A stretch of 64,000 nt of DNA, taken from contig JAQYEZ010000003.1 of NCBI GenBank assembly GCA_028723425.1, positions 1 to 64,000 of the forward strand, given 5' to 3'. The notes beneath the pieces are model-generated. The model was not told where the DNA came from, searched no databases, and saw only the letters and a program-made list of their open reading frames with translations. The first letter of the stretch is position 1, and each line of letters opens with the position of its first letter. The DNA comes from Peptoniphilaceae bacterium (GTDB lineage Bacteria; Bacillota; Clostridia; Tissierellales; Peptoniphilaceae). The position numbers and the translations under genes were made by a program. Positions 18,392-45,642 of this stretch are shown in pieces.

Positions 18392-19170
18392 ATAAATTCC
18401 TTGTACTTGTTATTTTTTACTGCTAGTATTTGAGAGATAATTGAGATTGCAATTTCTTCTACTTTTCCATTATCTATATCAAAACCAATAGGGGTATATA
18501 TTTGATCTAGATATTTTTGGTCTATGCCTCTTTCTTTTAAATCATCAAAGACAAGCTTAATTTTGTGTCTTGATCCAATCATACCTATATACTTATAATC
18601 CTTGCCCAAGACATTTGTTAGGACTTCTTTGTCAGAATTTGTAGTACATATTACAAGATAGGTATTGGAAGAAGAAAAATCTATATAAGCATTAGCTTCT
18701 TTAGAATCCATAGCCAAGAATTTTTTTATACCAATAAAATCTTCCTTATCCTTAAATTCTTCTCTTGGATCTACTACTGTTACATCAAATCCTGTCCTTA
18801 CAGCAACTCTGGCTAATTTTTGACCTACATGACCTGCGCCATAAATTATTAGTTGAGGTTGTGGCATAAAAACCTTTATATAGCCCTTATTTTCTCCACC
18901 ACAAATCATATTTAAATCAGAAGACTTATTTAGTCTAAGATCAAAGCTATCATCTTTTTCATTTTTTATAGCCTCTATAGCTTTTTTTGTAACTTCATAT
19001 TCCATAGGGCCTCCGCCTATAGTCCCAAAAGTTTGTCCATCTTCAAATACTGCCATCATAGAATCATTGGCACCTGGAACTGAACCTTTGACTTCTGTTA
19101 TAAAAACTAGGCATGCCTTTTTACCTTTACCAACCTCATCTACTACTTTTTTAAGAATTTCTACCTGCAT
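18388..19170 (-). CDS. XdhC/CoxI family molybdenum hydroxylase maturation protein
   Basis: VFITEVKGSVPGANDSMMAVFEDGQTFGTIGGGPMEYE; IYGAGHVGQKLA; YIGMIGSRHK. Confidence 0.9.
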   Translation of the reverse strand: MQVEILKKVVDEVGKGKKACLVFITEVKGSVPGANDSMMAVFEDGQTFGTIGGGPMEYEVTKKAIEAIKNEKDDSFDLRLNKSSDLNMICGGENKGYIKVFMPQPQLIIYGAGHVGQKLARVAVRTGFDVTVVDPREEFKDKEDFIGIKKFLAMDSKEANAYIDFSSSNTYLVICTTNSDKEVLTNVLGKDYKYIGMIGSRHKIKLVFDDLKERGIDQKYLDQIYTPIGFDIDNGKVEEIAISIISQILAVKNNKYKEFI

Positions 19171-19966
19171 TTTCTATTCTCCTTTTTAGAATTAGGATTG
19201 CTTCCAAAACTCCACCACCTATGGCCCTTGCCTTATCTGAAATGGTAATAGCATTTTCTTTTACTACTCTTGGGTCTACATCGCCAATTTTTAAGCCTAG
19301 GCTAACCTCTGAACCATCTTTTATCATGCCCCTAACCATACCATCAAGGCCTGCTTTTACAACTTTTCCCTCGACAAGTGCTAGAACTTGGTCTTTTTTT
19401 ACAACCGATCCTATATCTTCTATTACCTTAATCTTTCCACTAGCCGGAGCTCTTAGTATTCTTTGACTAGTAAAGCCTTGGATATTTCCTGGTATGCCCG
19501 TATTTTCTTCAGGCTTTCCTTCAAAAATCAATCTAGCTAAGTTGTGTCCTCTGTTAGTTTCTATTACAAGATCAACATCTTCTCCAGCCGTAAAGCCTGG
19601 TCCTAGACCAATAGTAATGGGAGCCATATCCTTAGTGGTGCCCAAATTTTTCTTTGCCAAAATCCCATCTACCACAACTAGAGGTTTTAATTTTTCTATA
19701 TAGACTCCTTTTTCATCAGCAATTATTGGGATAAAATCTTCTTTAAAGGCTTTTTCTATTCCTTCATAATCATAGACTCTTTTTACCTTAAAATCCTCTA
19801 TTTGAATTTCTCCTTCAAACATAGCAGATGCACACGCAACAGTTCTTCTAATGCAAAGGGGCTTTTCTTTTTCCAAAATCAAAACCTTGAAACCTGCTCT
19901 GTAAACTTTTTGGATTGAACCTGTTGCTACATCTCCACCACCCCTAAATATTACCAAATCATTCAT
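19151..19966 (-). CDS. yqeB: EF2563-family selenium-dependent molybdenum hydroxylase system protein YqeB
   Basis: VIFRGGGDVATGSIQKVYRAGFKVLILEKEKPLCIRRTVACASAMFEGE. Confidence 0.92.
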   Translation of the reverse strand: MNDLVIFRGGGDVATGSIQKVYRAGFKVLILEKEKPLCIRRTVACASAMFEGEIQIEDFKVKRVYDYEGIEKAFKEDFIPIIADEKGVYIEKLKPLVVVDGILAKKNLGTTKDMAPITIGLGPGFTAGEDVDLVIETNRGHNLARLIFEGKPEENTGIPGNIQGFTSQRILRAPASGKIKVIEDIGSVVKKDQVLALVEGKVVKAGLDGMVRGMIKDGSEVSLGLKIGDVDPRVVKENAITISDKARAIGGGVLEAILILKRRIENAGRNS

Positions 19967-20531
19967 AAATATCCTTGATTTGTTCTAGGTTAGTGTAGGT
20001 ATCTATGTCCCAAAGCTCTTTTATATCATCGATTAGAACTTCATTTTTATCATTATCCTTTACCAAAAGCATGCCACCTTGGTCATATTCTAATTCTAAA
20101 AGACCATCCCTAAAGCTTGGTGGAAAGATAACAGGAGCTCCCCTTCTTTTTTCAGTTCTAGGATAGGTAATTACTTCATTTTTCTTATAAGCAGCTATTA
20201 GCTTTTCTACAGTTTCTACTGTCAAAAGTGGTTGGTCAGCTACAAAAAAGATCATGGCATTTTCTTTTTTTGCCTTATTTACTCCAAGTTTTATAGAACT
20301 TGACTTGCCAACTATATTATTGTCATTATAGATGGCTACATAGCCTCTTTTTTTGGCTTCTTGCAAAAGTTTTTCATAAGAACTTACCAAAATAATTTCA
20401 TCAAAGTCTATTTGATCTACAAGATCATAGACATATTCATATATTTTTTTGCCCTTTAAATCTAAGAGCAACTTGTTTTTGCCCATTCTTTCAGATAGGC
20501 CTGAAGCCATAATTATGGCACTAATCTTCAT
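19959..20531 (-). CDS. mocA: Molybdenum cofactor nucleotidyltransferase (MocA/YgfJ-like)
   Basis: AIIMASGLSERMGKNKLLLDLKGK; FFVADQPLLT; YPRTEKRRGAPVIFPPSF. Confidence 0.85.
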   Translation of the reverse strand: MKISAIIMASGLSERMGKNKLLLDLKGKKIYEYVYDLVDQIDFDEIILVSSYEKLLQEAKKRGYVAIYNDNNIVGKSSSIKLGVNKAKKENAMIFFVADQPLLTVETVEKLIAAYKKNEVITYPRTEKRRGAPVIFPPSFRDGLLELEYDQGGMLLVKDNDKNEVLIDDIKELWDIDTYTNLEQIKDIYE

Positions 20532-21237
20532 AATATTCCTCCCTTAAAAGTGAACCATAAGCATAAGATATGTTCTTGGTGTTTTTTCTTAAAAATTTTA
20601 TTACTTCTAAAGTTTTTTCCTTTTCTTCTAAGCTTTCAACCTGGTTAAAAAAGATGAATTTAGGAGAAGAAAAATCTCCAAAAGGACCTGGTTTACTTTC
20701 TATTAGTTTCAAAAAGACTTCTTTGTTTACTATTTTTTCATCTATAAGCTTTATAAAATCATCATAATTATAGATGAAATCTTTATCTATTCTTCTTCCT
20801 ATAACTTTTGCAGAAAAAACACAAATTACCTTGCTACTAATATTATATATGACAGGTTCATAAGATTTCCACATCTTTAAAGCTAAATTTCTACAACCGT
20901 CTGCTTCAATTAGCATATAGTCAAAGTCTTTTGAGATTTTTGTTAAATTATCTTCTCCTATAGAAGAAAACTTGTTAGTCTTTGGGTCAAGTTTTCCCAT
21001 AGCTAGCAAAAACTTTTTTTCATCTATTTTTTTGTAAGAATTGAAACTATCGTATATATAGTCAATATCCTTATTTTTTGGTCGTCTTATTTTGGTTGAT
21101 GTGCTTATTAAAACCCTACCTTCTTTTTTTAAGCTAGATCCTAATTTTTCCATAAGGCTTGTTTTACCACCAGCTCCTGTGATAAAAATATTATCTCCTT
21201 TTTTTATTTGGAAGATATCTATTAGACTTTTTTTCAT
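20521..21237 (-). CDS. yqeC: Selenium-dependent hydroxylase accessory protein YqeC
   Basis: GDNIFITGAGGKTSLMEKLGSSLKKEGRVLISTSTKIRRP; LIEADGCRNLALKMWKSYEPVI. Confidence 0.88.
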   Translation of the reverse strand: MKKSLIDIFQIKKGDNIFITGAGGKTSLMEKLGSSLKKEGRVLISTSTKIRRPKNKDIDYIYDSFNSYKKIDEKKFLLAMGKLDPKTNKFSSIGEDNLTKISKDFDYMLIEADGCRNLALKMWKSYEPVIYNISSKVICVFSAKVIGRRIDKDFIYNYDDFIKLIDEKIVNKEVFLKLIESKPGPFGDFSSPKFIFFNQVESLEEKEKTLEVIKFLRKNTKNISYAYGSLLREEYYED

Positions 21238-21294: not shown

Positions 21295-23922
21295 CTATTG
21301 TTTTTTAAATTCTTTTTTTGGTTTGCTATAGGCCGTTTCTTTCATTGGAAATTCATCTCTTAAAACTCCATCCAAAGCATAATATGCCCCTTGGACCGCT
21401 GCTGCTATTGGTATAGTTGCTATTTCTCCTATACCCTTTGCTCCATAGGCTATATCCAAAAGCTTTTCTTTTTCAACTAAAATAGGATGAATTTTTGGAA
21501 TTTCTGGTGCTCTCCACAAGCCCAAGGTTCCATATTTTGCCTTAACTACAGAATTTACCACTTTCAAATCCTCTGTCAAAGCATAACCAAGGCCCATTAT
21601 TACCCCACCTTCTATTTGTCCTTCTATGGTGGTTGGATTTATTACCTTACCTGAATCATGAGCTGCATAAACTTCCTTAACCTTACCCTCATCATCTAAA
21701 ATTACAACATGAGTTGCAAAACCGTAGGCTAGGTGAGATTTTGGAAATTCTTTGTCAGAACCAAGTGGGTCTGTTGGATCAAAGTATTCATAGAAATACT
21801 CTTTGCCTTCAAGCTCTTCTAGGCTATGATTTTTCAAATCCTTTGCCAGCTCTTCTGCGGCTCTTCTTACTGCTTCTCCGGTTATTAGAGTATGTCTTGA
21901 ACCTGATGTTGTTCCAGAATCTGGTGAAGTTTCAGAGTTAGGTGTCATTATTTTGATCTTATCATATAAAAGACCAGTAGCCTCTCCTATAATTTGTAAC
22001 ATTACTGTTCCAACTCCTTGGCCTATACCACTGGCTGCACAATAAAGTTTGCAAATTCCATCTTCTATTTTTATTTTTGCCCTACCCTTATCAGGAAGTC
22101 CAACTCCTACACCAGCATTTTTCATGGCACAAGCTATACCAGCATGGTCCTTATTTTTTTCATAAACATCTTTTACCTTTTCCAAAGTCTCTACCAAGGC
22201 TGTAGAACAATCAGCTATTTGACCATTTGGTAGAACTTGACCTGGTTTGATTGCATTTCTATATCTGATTTCCCAAGGAGATATTCCAACCTTTTGAGCC
22301 AATAAGTTTATATTTGATTCCATAGCAAAGTTTGATTGGCAAACTCCAAAACCTCTAAAGGCTCCTGCAGGTGGATTGTTGGTGTAGTAGCCATAACCAT
22401 GAATTTCTGTATTTTGGTAATTGTATGGACCAACAGAGTGAGTACAGGCTCTTTCCAAAACAGGTCCACAAAGTGAAGCATAGGCTCCCGTATCAAAGTT
22501 TATTTCTACTTTCATAGCCTTAAAAATTCCATTTTCATCGCAGCCAAGTGTAAAACGTCCTTCCATAGGGTGACGTTTTGGATGCCATCTTAGGGATTCA
22601 TCCCTTGTCATCTTGTGTTTGACTGGTCTTTGATATAGATAAGCTGCAAGGGCTGCTGGAGGTTGAACAGACATATCTTCTTTTCCTCCAAAGCCTCCTC
22701 CAACATAGGGATTTTCGACCACAATCCTTTCTGGCTTATCTTGCCAACCAAACATAATGGATAATTCTTTTCTTGTATCATAAACGCTTTGGTCTGATGA
22801 ATAAACTTTTATACCATCCTTGTAAGGCATGGCAACACAACATTCTGGTTCCAAGAAGGCATGTTCTGTAAAAGGCGTTTTGTAATCATGGGTTACAACA
22901 TAGGCACACTCTTTTAGAGCTTCTTCTGCATTGCCACGACTTACATGTCTTTCTTGGCAAAGATTGCCATTAGGATGAATTTTTGGAGCATCTTTTGCCT
23001 TTGCTTCTGCTATAGATGAAACAGGCTTTAACTCTTCTAGGTCTACTTTTATTAATTTTTTAGCTTCTTCTACTATTTCTGGACTTTCTGCCACAACAAA
23101 ACATAGGGCATCTCCCAAAGATCTAGTTTCAGATCCTTTTTCTATAAATACATCCCAATCTTGTTGGATGTGACCTACCTTGTTATTTGGAACATCTTCT
23201 GCAGTTAAAACTCCTACAACCCCTTCAAGTTTTAAAGCCTCGCTATAGTCGATGTCAATAAATTTAGCCCTAGGATATTTGGTTCTTACACAAGAGCCAT
23301 AAAGCATGCCCTCTATTTCTATATCATCAGCATAGATACCTGTGCCGAGGATTTTTTCTTTGGCATCAATCCTATTAGTTCTTAGAGATATCTTGGCATC
23401 TTGTTCTTTTTCTTCTTCAATTGCCAGTTCTCCTCTTAGAATAGCTGCTGCCATTTGTATACCCTTGATGATTTTTACATAACCTGTACAACGGCATATA
23501 TTTCCCTTTATGGCTAATTTGATTTCTTCTTCTGTTGGATTTGGGTTTTTTTTGATAACACTCGCTCCACTCATGACCATACCTGGAATACAAAAACCAC
23601 ATTGAACAGCCCCTGCCTTTGTAAAGGCATAGGTGAAGGCATCTTTTTCTTCTTGGCTAAGTCCTTCATTGGTTAAAACTTCTGTATCCTTTAATTTTGA
23701 AAGTTTTACCACACAGGATCTTTTGTTTTCTTCTCCCACAAGTACCGTACATGTTCCACAAGCCCCTTGAGAACAACCGTCTTTAACTGATTTTATATGT
23801 AGATCATCTCTTAAAAATCTTAAAAGAGTTTTATCTTTGTAGGTTTCATAAGTTTGTCCATTTACTTTTACAATAAAAGGCGTCTGCTCTTCTATCTTTT
23901 CTCCAATTAATATCTTTTCCAT
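21295..23922 (-). CDS. xdh: Selenium-dependent xanthine dehydrogenase/molybdenum hydroxylase (fused 2Fe-2S and Mo-binding domains)
   Basis: VKDGCSQGACGTCTVLV, AVQCGFCIPGMVMS, NICRCTGYVKI, PYVGGGFGGKEDMSVQPPAALAAY, YGAKGIGEIATIPIAAA. Confidence 0.92.
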   Translation of the reverse strand: MEKILIGEKIEEQTPFIVKVNGQTYETYKDKTLLRFLRDDLHIKSVKDGCSQGACGTCTVLVGEENKRSCVVKLSKLKDTEVLTNEGLSQEEKDAFTYAFTKAGAVQCGFCIPGMVMSGASVIKKNPNPTEEEIKLAIKGNICRCTGYVKIIKGIQMAAAILRGELAIEEEKEQDAKISLRTNRIDAKEKILGTGIYADDIEIEGMLYGSCVRTKYPRAKFIDIDYSEALKLEGVVGVLTAEDVPNNKVGHIQQDWDVFIEKGSETRSLGDALCFVVAESPEIVEEAKKLIKVDLEELKPVSSIAEAKAKDAPKIHPNGNLCQERHVSRGNAEEALKECAYVVTHDYKTPFTEHAFLEPECCVAMPYKDGIKVYSSDQSVYDTRKELSIMFGWQDKPERIVVENPYVGGGFGGKEDMSVQPPAALAAYLYQRPVKHKMTRDESLRWHPKRHPMEGRFTLGCDENGIFKAMKVEINFDTGAYASLCGPVLERACTHSVGPYNYQNTEIHGYGYYTNNPPAGAFRGFGVCQSNFAMESNINLLAQKVGISPWEIRYRNAIKPGQVLPNGQIADCSTALVETLEKVKDVYEKNKDHAGIACAMKNAGVGVGLPDKGRAKIKIEDGICKLYCAASGIGQGVGTVMLQIIGEATGLLYDKIKIMTPNSETSPDSGTTSGSRHTLITGEAVRRAAEELAKDLKNHSLEELEGKEYFYEYFDPTDPLGSDKEFPKSHLAYGFATHVVILDDEGKVKEVYAAHDSGKVINPTTIEGQIEGGVIMGLGYALTEDLKVVNSVVKAKYGTLGLWRAPEIPKIHPILVEKEKLLDIAYGAKGIGEIATIPIAAAVQGAYYALDGVLRDEFPMKETAYSKPKKEFKKQ

Positions 23923-27092: not shown

Positions 27093-27722
27093 TTAGCCCA
27101 TATAATCTTTTTTATTTTCTTCGCTAATTCTATTAACCTTATGTTCTTCTTTTAATTCAAAGCCATTTTCTATATTGTTTGCTTTTTGAACTGCTATCAA
27201 TATATTTTCATAACCTGTACACCTACACATATTATTAGCTAATTCTTTTCTTAGCTCTTCAATTGTATAGTATTTGCCTCTAGAAATTACTTCTGTAGCA
27301 CGAACTATAAAACCAGGTGTACAAAAACCGCATTGAACTGCCGCTTCATCTACAAAGGCTTGTTGAACGATTGATAGAGATCCATCTTTTAAAGTTATTC
27401 CTTCTGTTGTCCAAATATCTTTGCCTTCTGCCCAAATTGCCAAGTAGATACAAGAGTTAAATGTTTCTCCATCAATAAGAACTGAACATGCCCCACATTC
27501 TCCAACTTCGCAGCCTTTTTTTACTGATGTTAAAGAAAACTCATTTCTTAAAAAATCTGTTAGTGATGCTCTCATGTCCACCATTTTGGCAACATTTACT
27601 CCGTTAATTCTACATTTAACTAGCTTATATTGAGGCTCAAAATGCAAGGCTTCTTCTTCTTTTTTTCCAAAAGGACCGTACTCACTGTTATGCATTAACT
27701 CCTCCTTTATGTTGTTTATCAA
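27093..27722 (-). CDS. xdhC: Xanthine dehydrogenase 2Fe-2S subunit (start may be 27695)
   Basis: VKKGCEVGECGACSVLIDG; AVQCGFCTPGFIV; NNMCRCTGYENI. Confidence 0.9.
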   Translation of the reverse strand: MINNIKEELMHNSEYGPFGKKEEEALHFEPQYKLVKCRINGVNVAKMVDMRASLTDFLRNEFSLTSVKKGCEVGECGACSVLIDGETFNSCIYLAIWAEGKDIWTTEGITLKDGSLSIVQQAFVDEAAVQCGFCTPGFIVRATEVISRGKYYTIEELRKELANNMCRCTGYENILIAVQKANNIENGFELKEEHKVNRISEENKKDYMG

Positions 27723-28572
27723 TATCTTTAAGACATCTTATGGCTATTTCATATAGAATTTGTGTTCTTAAAGCCTTGGAAGCTCTCCATGAATCACGAG
27801 GAGATAGTTCCTTTAGTGCCTCTTTGGCAAATTCTTTCATTGTTTCTTCTGTCAAAACTTTTCCTTTAAAAGCATTTTCTGCCTCAAAAACTCTTACAGG
27901 TGTTGGACCTGCAACTCCATAAGCTGCTCTAATACTTTCTATTACATTATCTTCTTTAAATTTTACGGATATTGAACATGAAGAAGTTGCTATATCCATG
28001 GCATTTCTCATAGCGTATTTGAAATAGTGACCGTAGTAATTCTCATAGGATTGTTTTTTTATAATTACAGCTGTCATTATTTCACTAGGTCTAAGGTATA
28101 CCTTACCAAAACCAAGATAAAAATCTGTTATGTCTACATATCTTTTGCCATTTTCTCCTTCAAGTTCGATTACGGCATCATAGGCAAAAAGTGTAGCAGA
28201 AGAATCTGCAGAAGGTACACCATTACAAACATTGCCCCCTATAGTTGCTATATTTCTAAGTTGTGGACCACCTGCTGTATCAACAGCTTCTCCTAATGTT
28301 GGACAGTATTTTTTTACCAAGTCATTGGCTGTTATATGAGAAAATGATGTAAGAGCTCCAATTCTTAAATCTCCATTTTCCATAAGACTAACTCCACGAA
28401 GCTTATCGCAAAGATATATAGAAATTAATTCCGCTCCTGCAAGTTTTCCTTCTCTAATCTTTATTAATACATCAGAACCACCGCCAATAAATACTGCTTG
28501 AGGGTGTTCTTTTTTTAATTCTATAGCTTCTTTTATGGTATTTGCTTCATAAATTGTTTTTACATCGTACAT
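27688..28572 (-). CDS. xdhB: Xanthine dehydrogenase FAD-binding subunit
   Basis: AVFIGGGSDVLIKIREG; GPQLRNIATIGGNVCNGVPSADS. Confidence 0.9.
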   Translation of the reverse strand: MYDVKTIYEANTIKEAIELKKEHPQAVFIGGGSDVLIKIREGKLAGAELISIYLCDKLRGVSLMENGDLRIGALTSFSHITANDLVKKYCPTLGEAVDTAGGPQLRNIATIGGNVCNGVPSADSSATLFAYDAVIELEGENGKRYVDITDFYLGFGKVYLRPSEIMTAVIIKKQSYENYYGHYFKYAMRNAMDIATSSCSISVKFKEDNVIESIRAAYGVAGPTPVRVFEAENAFKGKVLTEETMKEFAKEALKELSPRDSWRASKALRTQILYEIAIRCLKDIDKQHKGGVNA

Positions 28573-28586
28573 ATTATTCCACCTCT

Positions 28587-30878
28587 CTACAAATCATTAT
28601 CGATAAGTCCTGCTTCTTTGAATAATGGGAAGAGGACATGTGGTGTCATAGGTGCTTTATTTACAGATACACCAGTTGCATTTAGGATAGCATTTCTAAT
28701 AGCTGGTGCTGGTGAACAAGTTGGTGGTTCTCCCAAAGACTTGGTGTTAAATGGAGAAGTTGGCTCAGGATTTTCTATAAAGTAAACTTCAAAGTCTGGA
28801 TGATCCATAGTTGTAGATAACTTATAGTCTAGGAGGTTTCCATTTAAGATTCTTCCCTTATCATCATGTTTCATCTCTTCAGTTAGGGCAAAACCAACTG
28901 CCATTGACATACCGCCATGAACTTGGGCTTCGGCAAGTCTAGGATTAATTAGTTTACCACAGTCATGAACATTTACCAATCTTAAAACTTTAACCTTGCC
29001 AAGGTTTATATCAACTTCAACTTCAGCAAAAGAACAACCAAATGAATAAGCATTACTTCTAATAGTATAGGTTGATTCTGCACTTAAATGTTCACTATCT
29101 TTTGTATCATATAGGGAATTTGAAGCAACTTCTTCCAAAGTAGTTACAAGTTTTCCGTCAACTTTTCTTATTATTTCTCCATTGATTAAATCCAAGTTTT
29201 GTGGAGCCATTTCTTTTAGCTTTCCAGCCCTAGTAAGGATTTTTTCTTTTAGGATATTGGCTGTTTTTGTAATAGCAAAACTTGCCATATAAGTTTGTCT
29301 TGAAGCATAGGCACCAGTACCAAATGGAGTTACATCTGTATCTTGTTGGCTTACAATATGTACAGATTCAAAAGGAACTCCCAGAGCATCTGCGCTCATT
29401 TGTGCAAAGGCTGTATCTCCTCCTTGACCAATTTCAGTTTCACCAAGTTGAACTTGCAATGAACCATCTTGGTTTACAATCATTCTACAAGATGAACTTT
29501 CTAGAGAAATTGGATATACTCCTGTGTTATACCAGAAGGTTGCAGCTCCAATACCTCTTCTTATTTGACCTGTTTGGTTTTTATATTCTTCGCGTTTTTT
29601 ATAATAATCTGTAACATTTTTACCAACAGTTAAACATTCTCTAAAGGTATCGTAGTAGTTTTCATTGTGAGTAAAGCCGTCCACATAACCTTTTGGCATT
29701 ATATATTTCATCCTATATTCTAAAGGATCCATACCTAAAGCCTTGGCTACATCTTCTATATGACTTTCTCCTGCAAACATAGCTTGAGGTATACCATAAC
29801 CTCTCATAGCTCCTGAAACAGGTAGATTGGTATAAATACTGTAGGAATCAGCCTCTACATTATCGCAAGGATATTGTTGGTGGAAACAACCCATAGCCTT
29901 GGATGCTATAGAATGACCGTGAGAAGCATAACCACCATTTCCTGCAAATACTTCTATTTTTCTAGCAGCAAAGGATCCATCTTTTCTCACATATGAAATT
30001 ATATGTATCTTCATTGGGTGGCGGGTTCTAGTAGATGTAAATGTTTCTTCTCTTGAAGTATTTAAAACTACAGGATGACCTCCAACTTGAGTTGTAAGGT
30101 AAGCTGCCAATGGCTCATAAAGAGCATCTTGTTTGTTTCCGAAACCTCCGCCTATGTATGGTTTTATTACCCTGATTTTTCCCCAAGGTAGACCTAAAGC
30201 TTGACCGCAAACACGTCTTACTATGTGAGGCAATTGGGTTGAAGCTACAACGACAATTTTGCCTGCTTCTTCGTAAGCATATACTATTCCATTTTCTATA
30301 TGAGCATGTTGAACCATTGGTGTTTCATACCAACCTTCAACTTTTATTAGGCCTTCTTCTTTTATAGCCTCTTTATAATTTCCCCTATAATTTGTAGTAT
30401 GATCTATGATATTTTTTGGACTTTCTTCATGGATCAAAACTCCTTGAGTCTTCATAGACTCTAGTGGATCAAAAACAGCTTGGTATTGTTCATATTCAAC
30501 TTCAATAAGTTTTAGGGCCTTGCTACAAGTTACTTCATCTTGGGCTATAACAACTGCTATATCATCTCCATAATACCTAACGTGGGTATTTAAAAGATTT
30601 CTATCGGCCTTGTCTTGGTGATTTGGATCAAGTGACCAAGGGTGTCCTGCTGTTGGATAACACCATTCTGGCACATCAAAACATGTTATAACCTTTATCA
30701 CTCCTTCAAGTTCCATAGCCTTTGAATAATCAATGGACTTTACCCTACCATGGGCTATGGTTGAGTGTAGTATTTTTGCTACATAAGCATTTTTTGATAT
30801 CATATCCTCGGTATACTTTGCCCTGCCAGTTACCTTGTCATATGCATCAACTCTGTCAACGTTCTTACCAACGTACAT
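28587..30878 (-). CDS. xdhA: Xanthine dehydrogenase molybdenum-binding subunit
   Basis: VDRVDAYDKVTGRAKYTEDM; KPYIGGGFGNKQDALYEPLAAYL; GEPPTCSPAPAIRNAI. Confidence 0.92.
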   Translation of the reverse strand: MYVGKNVDRVDAYDKVTGRAKYTEDMISKNAYVAKILHSTIAHGRVKSIDYSKAMELEGVIKVITCFDVPEWCYPTAGHPWSLDPNHQDKADRNLLNTHVRYYGDDIAVVIAQDEVTCSKALKLIEVEYEQYQAVFDPLESMKTQGVLIHEESPKNIIDHTTNYRGNYKEAIKEEGLIKVEGWYETPMVQHAHIENGIVYAYEEAGKIVVVASTQLPHIVRRVCGQALGLPWGKIRVIKPYIGGGFGNKQDALYEPLAAYLTTQVGGHPVVLNTSREETFTSTRTRHPMKIHIISYVRKDGSFAARKIEVFAGNGGYASHGHSIASKAMGCFHQQYPCDNVEADSYSIYTNLPVSGAMRGYGIPQAMFAGESHIEDVAKALGMDPLEYRMKYIMPKGYVDGFTHNENYYDTFRECLTVGKNVTDYYKKREEYKNQTGQIRRGIGAATFWYNTGVYPISLESSSCRMIVNQDGSLQVQLGETEIGQGGDTAFAQMSADALGVPFESVHIVSQQDTDVTPFGTGAYASRQTYMASFAITKTANILKEKILTRAGKLKEMAPQNLDLINGEIIRKVDGKLVTTLEEVASNSLYDTKDSEHLSAESTYTIRSNAYSFGCSFAEVEVDINLGKVKVLRLVNVHDCGKLINPRLAEAQVHGGMSMAVGFALTEEMKHDDKGRILNGNLLDYKLSTTMDHPDFEVYFIENPEPTSPFNTKSLGEPPTCSPAPAIRNAILNATGVSVNKAPMTPHVLFPLFKEAGLIDNDL

Positions 30879-35397: not shown

Positions 35398-38300
35398 CTA
35401 CTTATATAGCTTTGCTGTTGGTTTTAGGTAATGTTGGTAATTTTCTTCTATAGCCTCAACTAATTTAACCATTTTTTCATCTAAATCTTTATTTATATCC
35501 TTTGTTTCTATGACATTGCCATTTTCAAGTCTTACTTTGTATTTCTTATCTGAAAGCTTTAAAAAGCCTACATTATTTGAGTCTACAAAGTCTTCTTCTG
35601 TCCAAAATACGGTAAATTTATCCTTGTATGGTTTACCAGCATGGGGACAAAATACTCCACAGTTACCACATTCGTTACACATGCCATCTATATGGATTAT
35701 TTGGTGTAAATTCTCAAATCCAGAAACTTCTATAGAAACATTTGCTCTATTTGGACAAACTTCTGTACAAATTTCACAGATTTGATCACATTTTAGGCAT
35801 CTATTAGCTTCTTTTGGGCCTTCTAGTTTTTCTTTTAAAATTCCTCTTTTAGCATAGATTGTTTCAACTTCTTCATCGACCTTATATTTTTTGAAGTCAT
35901 TTTCTAGATTTTCTTTTCTTAGAATATCTAAGGCTACAACTTTTGCTTGACCCATAGCCTTTACTATAGTTGAGGCTCCTGTCAAACAATCACCAATTAT
36001 ATAAACATTTTCTATGTTTGATTCATAAGTATCTAGAGTCTTTGGTTTTTTCCTATCATCAAGGTTAATGCCATTTTCTTCAAAACAACTTGTATCTACT
36101 TGGGCTCCTGTAGCTCCAATTACTGTATCAAATTCTAAGGATACTTCTTCCCCTGTAGCTACTACAGCTTTTCTACCTGACCCATCAAATTCACCTAGTT
36201 TCATCTTGTTGCATTTTAAAACTTTTCCATCATAAGATACTGGAGCAAGAAGTTCTAATATTTTGTGACCCTCTTCTTTTACATCGTTGACTTCTTCTTG
36301 GGTTGCTGGCATGTAGGCTTCTGTTCTTCTATAAATTAAGGTAACTTCTTCTACGCCTTCTTGTCTTGCTGCAGTTCTTGTACAGTCCATAGCAACATCT
36401 CCTGCACCAACTACGGCTACTTTCTTACCTAATTTAGCCCCACCTTCCATTCTTACATCCCAAAGGAAGTCTAGAGCATCTAGTATATTGTCTTTGCCTT
36501 CTTTAACTGGAGATTTTCCTTTTTTCCATGCTCCTGTAGCAACTATTATGTAATCATAGTCTTTTTTAAGGTCTTGGTATGACTCTGTTACTTCTGAATT
36601 AAAGGCAAATTTTACTCCTTGCTTTAGGGCAATCTTGTAATCTCTTTCAATGTCAGCATCAGAAATTCTAAATTCAGGAATAATGTGAGAAACTATACCA
36701 TAGGGTTTGGATAATTTTTCACGAACCAAAACATCCATACCATTTCTTCTTAAATAGCTTGCTGCAGCAATTCCACCAGGACCTGCACCAATTACTAGTA
36801 CCTTTTTATAAGACTTTAAGTCTGTTGGTTTTATATTTTCTACAAACTTATCTTGGGCCTTGTTTGCTGCTATAAGTTTGATATTTCTTATTTGCATGGT
36901 CTTTTCATAGTCAACTCTAGTACAATGGCTTTGGCAATAATGGGCACAAATTTGGCCAAGTATAGTTGGAGCTGTGTTATCATTGGCTATTACTTCCATT
37001 GCCTTATCATAGTTTCCCCTAGCTACAAGCTTTAAGTATTCAGGAACTTGTTGGTTGATCGGACAGCCTCCGTCTTTACAAGGAGCCTTGTAGCAATCTG
37101 TAAGAGGAAGAGTTGATTGTGTTTTTCTTGAGCCTACTTTTTCTCTATAAAGTTTATTGTTCTTCCAATCGCTTATTATCTGATCCCTAAGACTTACAAT
37201 TTTTTCTACATCCACACCAGCATATGGTTTTTCTAGTAGCTTTTCTGTTTTTTCTGCCAGTTGTTTAAGTCTTACATAGCCACCTGGTTTTAGTAAGGTT
37301 GTAGCAACTGTTATAGGTTGACCTATAGCTTCAAAAATTTCCCCTATATTTCTTGCATCTGCTCCCCCTGAATATGATATAGGAAGTTTGCCAGCAAATT
37401 CTTCGGCAAGCTTTGCTGCCATTGATAAGGTAAGGGGAAGTAGAGATCTACCTGACATATACATTTCTTCTGCTGGAAGCTCATTTCTTTTTACATCTAC
37501 TGGGAAAGTGTTAGATAGTTTAAGGCCAAAGACTAGACCTTTTTCCTTAGCAAGCTTTAAAAGTTTTTTAAACATAAGCACTGCATCATCATATTGAAGG
37601 TCATCTTTAAAATGGAAATCTGTAAAGGAAATATAGTCATAGCCCATATCATCTAGTGTTTTTCTAGCATATTCATAGCCAAGGATGGTAGGGTTACACT
37701 TGATAAAGGTATTGATTTTCTTTTCTGTTAAAAGATATTGGGCTATTTTTTCTATCTCATGAGCAGGACAACCGTGCAAGGTTGATAGGGTTATAGAATT
37801 GCAAATTTTTGGGCTAATATTGTTTAAATCTTCCAGACTAAAGTTTTCAAATTGATCTATGGTTTCTTTTAAATAGTTTTGACATTCTTTGAAAATTTCT
37901 GTAGCTTCAGCATTTTTTAAGCCTTCTATGTAAGAATCTATTTTAGGAGATTTTATTCCTTCTAGGTCGTAACCGCAGGACATGTTGAAAGCAAAATCTT
38001 TTTTATCTGAAAGCTTAAATTCTTTTGCAAATACTTGAATCAAAAAATATGCTTTGACATATTCTTCAAAAGCTTGGCTAACTGTTAATTCTGTTGACCA
38101 TTCGCAGTTGTAGCATTCATCTTCAGCCAAAATACAGGGTCTTCCTATAGCCTTTTGTATGTCTTCTCCGTCAAGAATTTGAACAGTTTTTAATTCTATA
38201 AATCTTGCTCCAGTCAAATAGGCTGTAAGTATATTTTGTGCCAATTGTGAATGAGGTCCTGCGGCAGGACCTAGGCAAGAAGAAATTTCATCTCCAAAAA

Positions 38301-38439
38301 CTGTTTTTAACTTTATATTTGCTTTGTTTTTATAGAAAGCCTCTTTTCTTATTCCAAAAACTTTCCCTTCATTTTTATATTCTTCCTTTATCCAATTGAT
38401 TAAATCTTCAAAAGACATGGGTCTCATATATTCACTCAT
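35398..38439 (-). CDS. ygfK: YgfK family Fe-S/FAD oxidoreductase (formerly putative selenate reductase subunit)
   Basis: MRPMSFEDLINWIKEEYKNEGKVFGI; VLVIGAGPGGIAAASYLRRNGMDV; CNECGNCGVFCPHAGKPYKDKFTVFWTEEDF. Confidence 0.93.
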   Translation of the reverse strand: MSEYMRPMSFEDLINWIKEEYKNEGKVFGIRKEAFYKNKANIKLKTVFGDEISSCLGPAAGPHSQLAQNILTAYLTGARFIELKTVQILDGEDIQKAIGRPCILAEDECYNCEWSTELTVSQAFEEYVKAYFLIQVFAKEFKLSDKKDFAFNMSCGYDLEGIKSPKIDSYIEGLKNAEATEIFKECQNYLKETIDQFENFSLEDLNNISPKICNSITLSTLHGCPAHEIEKIAQYLLTEKKINTFIKCNPTILGYEYARKTLDDMGYDYISFTDFHFKDDLQYDDAVLMFKKLLKLAKEKGLVFGLKLSNTFPVDVKRNELPAEEMYMSGRSLLPLTLSMAAKLAEEFAGKLPISYSGGADARNIGEIFEAIGQPITVATTLLKPGGYVRLKQLAEKTEKLLEKPYAGVDVEKIVSLRDQIISDWKNNKLYREKVGSRKTQSTLPLTDCYKAPCKDGGCPINQQVPEYLKLVARGNYDKAMEVIANDNTAPTILGQICAHYCQSHCTRVDYEKTMQIRNIKLIAANKAQDKFVENIKPTDLKSYKKVLVIGAGPGGIAAASYLRRNGMDVLVREKLSKPYGIVSHIIPEFRISDADIERDYKIALKQGVKFAFNSEVTESYQDLKKDYDYIIVATGAWKKGKSPVKEGKDNILDALDFLWDVRMEGGAKLGKKVAVVGAGDVAMDCTRTAARQEGVEEVTLIYRRTEAYMPATQEEVNDVKEEGHKILELLAPVSYDGKVLKCNKMKLGEFDGSGRKAVVATGEEVSLEFDTVIGATGAQVDTSCFEENGINLDDRKKPKTLDTYESNIENVYIIGDCLTGASTIVKAMGQAKVVALDILRKENLENDFKKYKVDEEVETIYAKRGILKEKLEGPKEANRCLKCDQICEICTEVCPNRANVSIEVSGFENLHQIIHIDGMCNECGNCGVFCPHAGKPYKDKFTVFWTEEDFVDSNNVGFLKLSDKKYKVRLENGNVIETKDINKDLDEKMVKLVEAIEENYQHYLKPTAKLYK

Positions 38440-42483: not shown

Positions 42484-42632
42484 GCCAAATAATATAAAGG
42501 CTTTTTTTTAAATTTTTTTATTATTTTTTTGAGAGGATTTTTGCCTTTATTTTTGAAATAGATACTTAAGTTTATTCCTTTTCTTTTTAACTGTGATATA
42601 ATAAATATCAAATATTACAGCTAAGGAGGAGC

Positions 42633-43655
42633 TTGATGAAGGATATAAAATTAGATGTATGTGGCGGCTGCAATGCAAAAATTCCACCTGCATCTCTAGA
42701 TGAGATTTTAAATTCTATTGTCAATTATAAGAGAAAAGACATCCTTGTTGGATACGATTCCAAGGATGATTCTGCAGTAATTAATATAGATGATAAAACA
42801 GGAATAATTACAAGTTTAGACTTCTTTCCTCCAATGGTAAGTGATCCCTTTGTTTTTGGTCAGATAGCTGCTGCCAACGCCCTAAGTGATATATATGCCA
42901 TGGGAGCAGAAGCAATTTGTGCATTAAATATTGTAGCTTTTCCAGAGAATGGGGATATAGGAGCTCTCGAAAAAATTCTTCAGGGTGGAGCTTCAAAAGT
43001 GACCGAGGCTAAGGCTAGCCTTGTTGGAGGACATTCTATACACGATCCTAAGGTAAAATATGGACTAAGTGTTATAGGAAAATGTCCAATAGATAAAATA
43101 TGGAAAAATAATACTCCAAAAATTGGCCATAAGTTAATTTTAACCAAGCCTTTGGGAGTAACTCTTGTTGTTAATGCCCACTCTCTAGGTCTTGTAAGTG
43201 ATGAAGACTTTGATTTGGCTATAAATTCTATGACTACCTTAAATAAGTATGCTAAGGATATTTTGCAAAAATACAAGATATCTTCTGCAACAGATGTGAC
43301 TGGCTTTTCGCTTTTGGGTCATCTTGGAGAAATGGTCGATAAGAATTTCACCGCTATTTTAGATTCAAGCCAAATACCCCTACTTAAAGGAGCTAGAAAG
43401 GCTGCCAGTGAATTTGTCTTTACCAAGGGAGGCGAGCGCAACAGGTTGTTTATGGAAAAAAAGGTCGAGTTTCAAGTTGATGACTTTCCCTTAGAGGAAA
43501 TTTTGTATGATCCTCAAACCTCAGGCGGTCTATTGGTTGCCATAGATCCAAATGATGCCGATAAGGCTTTGGAAGAATTGAGGGTAAATAATATAGAAAG
43601 CAGTATAATTGGCGAAATTTACAAAAAATTTGATAAAAGTATTTTTATAGTATAG
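42633..43655 (+). CDS. selD: Selenide, water dikinase
   Basis: VCGGCNAKIPPASLDEIL (Cys form); GYDSKDDSAVI; TDVTGFSLLGHLGEMV; DPQTSGGLL. Confidence 0.95.
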   Translation: MMKDIKLDVCGGCNAKIPPASLDEILNSIVNYKRKDILVGYDSKDDSAVINIDDKTGIITSLDFFPPMVSDPFVFGQIAAANALSDIYAMGAEAICALNIVAFPENGDIGALEKILQGGASKVTEAKASLVGGHSIHDPKVKYGLSVIGKCPIDKIWKNNTPKIGHKLILTKPLGVTLVVNAHSLGLVSDEDFDLAINSMTTLNKYAKDILQKYKISSATDVTGFSLLGHLGEMVDKNFTAILDSSQIPLLKGARKAASEFVFTKGGERNRLFMEKKVEFQVDDFPLEEILYDPQTSGGLLVAIDPNDADKALEELRVNNIESSIIGEIYKKFDKSIFIV

Positions 43656-43668
43656 GAGGAAGACTTAA

Positions 43669-44253
43669 ATGAAAGAAGTAGATGCAAGAGGTATAGAATG
43701 CCCAATGCCAGTTATCATGGCAAAAAGACTGGTAAACGAGGGAGAAGAAGAATTTAAGGTTTTTGTAAACGAAAAAATTGCCGTAGAAAATTTAAATAAA
43801 ATGGCAAAACAAGTTAACTACAAAACCAGTGTAAGAGAAAAGGAAAATGGCGAATTTGAACTTTTGTTTGAAAAGTCAGAGTCAGTAGATAAAGATAATC
43901 CAAAAAAGCTTATGGAAAGTGAAGAATATATAGTAGTTTTTGATTCTGATAGTCTGGGAGAAGGCGACAAAGACTTTTCCAAAAAATTGATAGAATCTTT
44001 CCTCCTAGCTCTAACAGAACAAGATAAGTATCCAGAATACCTTATCTGCTACAATAGGGGAGTTTATTTAACAACTGAAAGAGAAAATGCCATAGAGGAT
44101 TTAAAAAAATTGGAAGATAGGGGTGTAAAAGTTCTCTCTTGCGGTCTTTGCCTTGACAATTACGGTCTAAAAGAAAAACCAAAAGTTGGAAAAGTAACAA
44201 ATATGTATGAAATAGTAGGACTTATGACTTCTAAAAGAGTTGTAAGACCCTAA
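43669..44253 (+). CDS. yedF: Sulfurtransferase-like selenium metabolism protein YedF
   Basis: VDARGIECPMPVIMAKRLV (TusA-like CPxP) and DsrE-like C-terminus with SCGLCLDNYGLKEK. Confidence 0.92.
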   Translation: MKEVDARGIECPMPVIMAKRLVNEGEEEFKVFVNEKIAVENLNKMAKQVNYKTSVREKENGEFELLFEKSESVDKDNPKKLMESEEYIVVFDSDSLGEGDKDFSKKLIESFLLALTEQDKYPEYLICYNRGVYLTTERENAIEDLKKLEDRGVKVLSCGLCLDNYGLKEKPKVGKVTNMYEIVGLMTSKRVVRP

Positions 44254-44522
44254 TGGAATATATACTTTACACCTTTGAGTCCACAACCGATGCTATGCTT
44301 GCTGAAATGACTGTAACAAATGAAAAAATTAGGGCTAGACTAGTTCCCCTTCTACCTGAAATTGATGCTGGTTGTGGGCTTGCACTTAGGTTTGAAAAAG
44401 ATTTTGATAAAGAAGTGAAAGAGATTTTTTCTAAAAATTCTCTATCATTTCAAAAAAGGTATCGCCTTATTTATGGGGAAAACGAAAGAAAACCAAAGGT
44501 TTTAGAATATGATTTACTTTGA
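44253..44522 (+). CDS. DUF3343 domain-containing protein
   Basis: YTFESTTDAMLAEMT...LPEIDAGCGLALRFE; overlaps yedF stop and the next gene start. Confidence 0.85.
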   Translation: MEYILYTFESTTDAMLAEMTVTNEKIRARLVPLLPEIDAGCGLALRFEKDFDKEVKEIFSKNSLSFQKRYRLIYGENERKPKVLEYDLL

Positions 44523-45642
44523 TAATGCAGCAACAACAATAGATAAGGATAAAAAAGTAATAGAGGCTATAACTTATGCTCTTATGAACAAAAATTTTGC
44601 CAATCCTTCTAGGGGATCCTATAAACTTAGTCAAAATGCCCTTAGAAAGCTTATCGAAATAAGGATGAGCCTTGCGAATTTTTTCGAGTCAAATGATCCC
44701 AAAAAAGTAATCCTTACCCCAAATATTACCTACAGTTTAAATATTATAATTAAAAGTCTATTTAAGAAAGGTGACCATGTGATAAGTAGCCTAGCAGAGC
44801 ATAATTCAGTCCTTAGACCTCTTTATGATTTTGAGACTAGGGGTGGAGAACTTTCTTTTATAGGAATTGATGATAAGTTCAATTTAGAACTTGACCAAAT
44901 CGAAAAACTCATAAAGGAAAATACCAAAGCCCTTGTAATTACTGCGGCATCAAATGTCTCTGGCAAGGTTACAGACTTAAAGAAAGTTTATTCTATTTGC
45001 AAAAAACATAAGCTAAAGTTAATAATTGATGGTGCTCAGCTTGCAGGAGCTTGTGATTTTTCTATGGAAGACTTTGATGATACTATATTTGCCTTTACAG
45101 GTCATAAGGCCCTCCACGGCCCCCAAGGAACGGGAGGCTTTATAATAAAGGGCGATTTTGATTTTGAGCAAGTTTTTTCGGGAGGATCGGGTTTTGATTC
45201 TTTTTCAAAAAAACAACCCCACTCTCTGCCAGACCTCTTTGAACCTGGCACTGCAAACTTGCCTTCTTTTATAGGGCTTGAGGCAGCAATAGAAGTTTTA
45301 AAGGAAAATAAGCCTTATGAGAAGTTAGACAAGCTTACAAGATACCTCTATGAGAATCTAAAAGAAAACAAAAATCTAGACTTTTATACCAGGCTTGAAA
45401 AAATAAACGCCCCAATAGTTTCTTTTAACATCAAAGGTTTTGATGCAAATACCATAAGCCATATTTTAGATTTAAAATATGACATTTGTACAAGGGCGGG
45501 CTCTCATTGTGCCCCACTTTTTCACAAAAGATTTGGCACAAAAAAAAGATCTATTGTTAGATTAAGTCTTTCCCCTTACAACACTAAGGAGGAAATAGAC
45601 TATGTAGTAAAAGCAATAAATGAAATTTCTATACAAAAATAG
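44509..45642 (+). CDS. Class V aminotransferase, cysteine desulfurase/selenocysteine lyase-like (CsdB type)
   Basis: MIYFDNAATTIDKDKKV; GDHVISSLAEHNSVLRPL; FAFTGHKALHGPQGTGGF; TRAGSHCAPLFHKRFGT. Confidence 0.92.
   Translation: MIYFDNAATTIDKDKKVIEAITYALMNKNFANPSRGSYKLSQNALRKLIEIRMSLANFFESNDPKKVILTPNITYSLNIIIKSLFKKGDHVISSLAEHNSVLRPLYDFETRGGELSFIGIDDKFNLELDQIEKLIKENTKALVITAASNVSGKVTDLKKVYSICKKHKLKLIIDGAQLAGACDFSMEDFDDTIFAFTGHKALHGPQGTGGFIIKGDFDFEQVFSGGSGFDSFSKKQPHSLPDLFEPGTANLPSFIGLEAAIEVLKENKPYEKLDKLTRYLYENLKENKNLDFYTRLEKINAPIVSFNIKGFDANTISHILDLKYDICTRAGSHCAPLFHKRFGTKKRSIVRLSLSPYNTKEEIDYVVKAINEISIQK

Follow-up and report, generated by a model that had tools for sequence, protein, structure and literature searches.

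Organization of the selD Operon

The window, i.e., the whole stretch of 64,000 nucleotides of Peptoniphilaceae bacterium DNA that was analyzed, carries on its plus strand a compact operon of overlapping genes in the order selD, yedF, DUF3343, and a class-V PLP lyase, with the following features:

42597–42602, plus strand: TATAAT, probable −10 promoter element of the selD operon (from the sequence and from relatives)
42623–42629, plus strand: AAGGAGG, ribosome-binding site of selD (from the sequence)
42636–43655, plus strand: selD, selenophosphate synthetase (TIGR00476, 342.5 bits, cut-off 125)
43669–44253, plus strand: yedF, fusion of TusA-like and DsrE-like parts (TIGR03527, 201.9 bits, cut-off 110)
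44253–44522, plus strand: DUF3343 (Se_S_carrier), 89 aa (PF11823, 62.6 bits, cut-off 25)
44509–45642, plus strand: class-V PLP cysteine desulfurase/selenocysteine lyase-like protein of the EF2568 type (TIGR01977, 358.8 bits)

The coordinates, strand, and junctions confirmed the initial annotation, in which four tightly packed plus-strand genes with overlaps of 1 nt and 14 nt had been described. The TAA codon of yedF (44251–44253) shares one nucleotide with the ATG of DUF3343 at 44253 (TAATG), and DUF3343 ends at 44522, 14 nt into the lyase gene that starts with the ATG at 44509. The selD gene itself stood, but its start was moved from the TTG at 42633 to the more likely ATG at 42636, which was favored because of the AAGGAGG motif at 42623–42629. 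In the region upstream of selD, TATAAT was the sole element common to the close relatives, being found at the same position in the Anaerococcus-type loci L037, L097, and L098. No Rfam elements were found across the window; its left end (95–1597) is occupied by a transposase-like ORF of 500 aa. Genes in this same arrangement are found again in Anaerococcus, Peptoniphilus, Neofamilia, Urinicoccus, Khoudiadiopia, and Trichococcus, hence the arrangement of the operon is not a matter of chance.

Families, Motifs, and Folds of the Encoded Proteins

SelD, YedF, and DUF3343 were confirmed as members of the families to which they had been assigned. The N-terminus of SelD reads VCGGCNAK, and its alignment placed Cys12 and Lys15 at Cys17 and Lys20 of the E. 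coli protein, with C-N-A-K opposite the C-G-C-K of the E. coli-type SelD; the enzyme is of the Cys form, not the Sec form. Both Pfam domains of YedF, TusA and DsrE, were matched. Its TusA-like part carries a CPMP motif (Cys11) and its DsrE-like part a CGLC motif (Cys158/Cys161), and all three cysteines were invariant in 17 relatives.

DUF3343 has a single cysteine, the invariant Cys41, and no CXXC. The motif DAGCG had been described as conserved in this protein; the alignment reduced it to Cys41-Gly42, present in 72/72 relatives, with Asp38 retained in just 10 of the 72. A ferredoxin-like β-α-β-β-α-β fold was predicted (AlphaFold pLDDT 88), in which Cys41 would lie where the least certain loop ends, directly before strand 3. 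The search of this fold against solved structures gave no sulfur or selenium carrier, only weak ferredoxin/PII-like matches (best E 4.8e-3, PII-like). A sequence search of the PDB had no hit for DUF3343; for YedF, its sole hit was a TusA-like protein. Our literature search turned up no biochemical work on either DUF3343 or this YedF.

The lyase carries the PLP-binding Lys200 and the catalytic Cys334 within RAGSHCAP, a cysteine conserved in the aligned operon-linked relatives. Its earlier designation as CsdB-type was refined, since TIGR01977, the E. faecalis EF2568 family, was the best model by 80 bits, and the CsdA/SufS-type models scored lower. With 358.8 bits against a cut-off of 377, the protein is, by its profile scores, a close relative of the EF2568-type lyases, not a formal TIGR01977 member. 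Nor does it belong to SclA (NF040779), for which it scored 277 bits with a cut-off of 525.

selD of the Host Is an Orphan Accompanied by Labile-Selenium Genes

The presence or absence of genes in the host genome (1.9 Mb, 99.1% complete) was judged by profile searches. These did not find selA, and no mnmH scored over the cut-off. A 21.8-bit mnmH candidate was rejected because the match covered 28 residues, and a 47.3-bit tRNA-Sec candidate was rejected as ARAGORN identified it as tRNA-Ser with the anticodon tga. The initial annotation had called selD an orphan; the check for Sec machinery that bears on this claim, run for selA, mnmH, and tRNA-Sec, found none of them in the genome, and judged from these three, selD is an orphan. 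The window holds, on the minus strand, the genes that may use its product:

19151–19966, minus strand: yqeB, selenium-dependent Mo cofactor protein (TIGR03309, 350 bits, cut-off 220)
19959–20531, minus strand: YgfJ/MocA-like nucleotidyltransferase (TIGR03310, 142 bits, below the cut-off of 186)
20521–21237, minus strand: yqeC (TIGR03172, 146 bits, cut-off 73)
21295–23922, minus strand: fused Se-dependent xanthine dehydrogenase, likely selenium recipient (TIGR03311, 1228.7 bits, cut-off 830)
27093–30878, minus strand: three-subunit XDH with FeS, FAD, and Mo subunits (NF043084, 236 bits, cut-off 217; NF043082, 1198 bits, cut-off 780; FAD subunit assigned by position)
35398–38439, minus strand: ygfK, annotated as putative selenate reductase subunit (TIGR03315, 1324 bits, cut-off 835)

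The genes selD, yqeB, and yqeC, which together mark the labile-selenium (SDMH) trait, are all present, and no Sec or selenouridine explanation was found for selD. The combination of an orphan selD with YqeB, YqeC, and the Se-dependent XDH in one window points to Mo hydroxylases as the most likely destination of the host selenophosphate, i.e., to a predicted labile selenium of purine enzymes. The three-subunit XDH is a second candidate recipient. In C. difficile, mutants in selD or yqeB no longer grow on uric acid, and growth on xanthine likewise depends largely on SelD and YqeB (PMC11448449); this supports the use of selenophosphate by YqeB.

YedF Accompanies Every Use of Selenophosphate in the Family

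In a class-wide sample of 243 genomes, we counted selD in 59, yedF in 59, selA in 42, mnmH in 31, yqeB in 33, and DUF3343 in 168. selD and yedF occurred together in 55 genomes with four exceptions each way (Fisher 1e-44), and no yqeB was found without selD. Thirteen of the genomes, the host included, had selD without selA or mnmH, and all 13 carried yqeB, yedF, and DUF3343. The claim that an orphan SelD together with YedF and YqeB marks the labile-selenium pathway was thereby borne out, and the result lends support to the known rule by which orphan selD genes serve labile-selenium enzymes.

A family-wide search with a chimeric YedF+YqeB+MnmH+SelA query against 61 genomes of the same family detected YedF in 43/43 genomes with SelA, MnmH, or YqeB and in 0/18 without any of them; the Fisher value of 7.6e-16 overstates the independence of these genomes, which share ancestry, but the range of trait combinations is unaffected by it. 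All seven combinations of use were seen among the 43 genomes (MnmH only in 7, SelA only in 7, YqeB only in 4, mixed in 25), and YedF was present in each of the 24 selenium users without YqeB. As YedF spans the SelA, MnmH, and YqeB uses, it is best taken as part of a shared front end and not of a relay specific for Mo enzymes.

The gene neighborhoods showed the same variety of end uses. The genus-mate of the host (G102) has the same layout of the operon, and the closest named loci are those of Anaerococcus vaginalis and A. ihuae, so that the host probably belongs to Anaerococcus or a close relative of it. An identical selD-yedF-DUF3343-lyase block was found in G177, a genome with mnmH and without selA or yqeB (selenouridine only). 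The operon adjoins mnmH in L039, L103, L104, and Trichococcus ilyis (L151), includes selB/selA in the Sec-type loci L115, L127, and L140 (Listeria costaricensis), and adjoins yqeB, yqeC, and xdh in Khoudiadiopia (L106); yqeB lies within the same cluster in L045, L049, L055, L126, and L141. Directly upstream of the selD operon, Neofamilia (L099) has DUF3343, an activase, and a double-cubane gene. Among the 80 closest YedF loci, not an unbiased sample because they were chosen for similarity to the host YedF, SelD was found within 5 kb of YedF in 42 and a lyase in 46; DUF3343 lay immediately next to YedF in 27, and in 18 it adjoined or overlapped a lyase. A yedF-DUF3343-lyase cluster was also noted in Treponema putidum (L107, 10001–10954), its YedF being 49% identical to that of the host; horizontal transfer from a Peptoniphilaceae-like donor is possible.

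Genomes With selD and Without YedF Suggest Two Kinds of SelD

Three of the four genomes with selD and without yedF (G083, G101, and G193) lacked both YedF and DUF3343, even at permissive DUF3343 thresholds. Their SelD proteins are of the E. coli type (GAGCGCK) and paired with mnmH (loci L058, L060, and L061), whereas the SelD proteins beside YedF that we read have GGCxAK or nearby variants. In G193, xdh, yqeC, ygfJ, and yqeB occur together without YedF and DUF3343, hence the Mo-hydroxylase genes can exist without these two proteins. The fourth exception, G048, has selD without YedF and retains DUF3343. Since the E. coli-type SelD comes without YedF/DUF3343 both in the presence and in the absence of YqeB, the presence of the two proteins appears to depend on which kind of SelD a genome has rather than on what the selenium is used for; this covariation concerns three genomes and two or three evolutionary events and is not a proof.

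DUF3343 Is Not Confined to Selenium Metabolism

DUF3343 is not a selenium-only protein. In genomes without selD, its gene often adjoins that of an EF2568-type lyase. In four genomes, DUF3343 is fused to the N-terminus of HydE (L178, 5061–6410; L179, 5751–7067; L180, 5903–7270; L181, 5214–6545), with its Cys kept and the following Gly not; an EF2568-type lyase is encoded nearby in three of them, and at least one of the fusions, that in L179, stands beside HydG as identified by a profile model. Frames of about 450 aa had been considered DUF3343–lyase fusions; this was rejected, the partner being the [FeFe]-hydrogenase maturase HydE. Judging from the fusions, a role of DUF3343–HydE as a chalcogen carrier for H-cluster assembly is possible.

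The host genome has a second, selenium-like DUF3343 locus (G000:C6, L077, 7773–11820), containing an activase, a 252-aa protein, a double-cubane reductase (NF040772, 486 bits, cut-off 350), a DUF3343 paralogue (HACGVC), and a "selenium metabolism-associated" LysR regulator (LysR_Sec_metab, 287 bits, cut-off 250). It sits in a genome without selA or tRNA-Sec according to profile searches and ARAGORN. A selenium link of double-cubane proteins was noted earlier (PMC10418091). In E. coli K-12 (L177, 8669–10851), YtiA (DUF3343) is encoded in a row with yjiL (an activase) and yjiM (of the double-cubane type), and our literature search found no paper treating YtiA, YjiL, and YjiM together.

These contexts and the exceptions described above raise a wider, tentative hypothesis, to which we give somewhat less than even weight. 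DUF3343 may be a small, general chalcogen carrier that works with EF2568-type lyases in several unrelated maturation systems (GGC-type SelD with YedF, double-cubane reductases, and HydE-fused [FeFe]-hydrogenase assembly), and SelD may exist in two kinds, only one of which, not the GAGCGCK kind of E. coli, depends on YedF and DUF3343 as carriers.

A Probable Selenium-Supply Module at SelD

We consider it probable that the operon is a generic selenium-supply module that acts at SelD, upstream of any end use. This reading starts from what was observed here: the gene order, the families, the orphan status of selD, the co-occurrence with selenium use, and the invariant cysteines. Acting on selenocysteine (or cysteine), the PLP lyase would release selenium (or sulfur), which would sit on Cys334 as a perselenide (or persulfide). 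DUF3343 (Cys41) and YedF (Cys11 and Cys158/Cys161) would then, as putative carriers acting in this presumed order, shield the reactive chalcogen on its way to the active site of SelD, where Cys12/Lys15 would receive selenium for the formation of selenophosphate. The use of selenophosphate would be decided by other genes; the sole known consumers found in the host were YqeB, YqeC, and the XDHs. We infer the steps up to SelD from the translational coupling, the cross-trait distribution, and the invariant cysteines. Several points count against the supply model. No biochemical work on DUF3343 or this YedF was found, the fold search brought up no sulfur or selenium carrier, and the covariation with the type of SelD concerns three genomes. 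Among the genes listed as important in a Tn-seq study of E. faecalis is YqeB, but not yedF, selD, or the lyase (PMC7701990). Finally, the occurrence of DUF3343 with the same type of lyase in selD-less genomes means that the pair may move sulfur.

This last point also speaks for the strongest of the alternatives, in which the lyase and DUF3343 would be sulfur donors (to the Mo=S ligand, to Fe-S clusters, or to further cofactors), SelD and YedF alone would form the selenium path, and the operon would simply co-regulate both. It draws on the 112 genomes without selD among the 168 with DUF3343 (of 243 sampled), on the lyase and DUF3343 being neighbors at roughly half the loci that we read in genomes without selD, and on the HydE fusions. 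We regard it as unlikely: in this operon, translational coupling ties the lyase and DUF3343 to yedF, downstream of selD, and several genera have kept the block of four genes. Haft and Self, in addition, based their ranking of the EF2568 lyase on how its profile matched selD (PMC2276186).

The initial annotation had read the genes as a trait-specific relay dedicated to Mo hydroxylases, with selenium passing from the lyase to DUF3343/YedF, SelD, YqeB/YqeC, and finally the Mo site. The part concerning the orphan selD and its SDMH context held; the exclusivity for Mo hydroxylases did not. The location of both gene sets in one window and the clusters with an internal yqeB agree with such a relay, but YedF follows any use of selenophosphate, the YqeB-free users included, the selenouridine-only G177 has the identical operon, G193 has the YqeB, YqeC, and XDH genes without YedF and DUF3343, and yqeC is dispensable in C. 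difficile (PMC11448449). A dedicated relay is therefore very improbable. Least credible is a protective or redox role, in which YedF and DUF3343 would limit toxic free selenide or keep the SelD cysteines reduced without carrying selenium to SelD: the CPMP and CGLC motifs are redox motifs and a redox or detoxification role of YedF was raised by Lin et al. in 2015 (PMC5322559), but the 43/43 versus 0/18 distribution fits supply at least as well, and DUF3343 has here one Cys and no CXXC.

The supply model bears on how selenium reaches SelD without a spill of toxic selenide and becomes a labile ligand of Mo hydroxylases. Given the distribution data, YedF and DUF3343 likely act on the supply side of SelD, and the place to look is the yield of selenophosphate rather than the insertion at the Mo site. 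With one known use of selenium and a compact four-gene supply operon, the host offers a clean setting for such tests.

Comparison With Known Systems

The core associations have already been published (PMC2276186, PMC5322559), and the labile-selenium trait is established; new here are the cross-trait test, the set of exceptions, and the wider contexts of DUF3343. Haft and Self described in 2008 an orphan selD of E. faecalis with YedF (EF2566) and a lyase (EF2568) (PMC2276186). Like the host, the EF2563–EF2572 region combines an orphan selD, yedF, and a TIGR01977 lyase near yqeB, yqeC, ygfJ, and xdh (PMC2276186), and the linked ygeW/ygeX/ygeY/ygfK/ssnA genes are found in both. Unlike the E. faecalis locus, the host has a DUF3343 gene separating yedF from the lyase; its four genes are joined in a single compact operon, which lies 19–24 kb from the yqeB-xdh cluster and on the opposite strand.

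DUF3343 was proposed by Lin et al. in 2015 to be a selenium/sulfur trafficking chaperone (PMC5322559), and the Pfam name of PF11823 is now Se_S_carrier. The YedF/DUF3343/Sec lyase clusters of Slackia and other bacteria (PMC5322559) have the same families adjacent as in the host, but they sit with Sec genes, whereas the host genome lacks selA, tRNA-Sec, and selenouridine synthase. The E. coli YtiA–YjiL–YjiM set resembles the second DUF3343 locus of the host in joining DUF3343 with an activase and a double-cubane protein, and differs from the selD operon in having no YedF fusion protein, selD, or lyase alongside.
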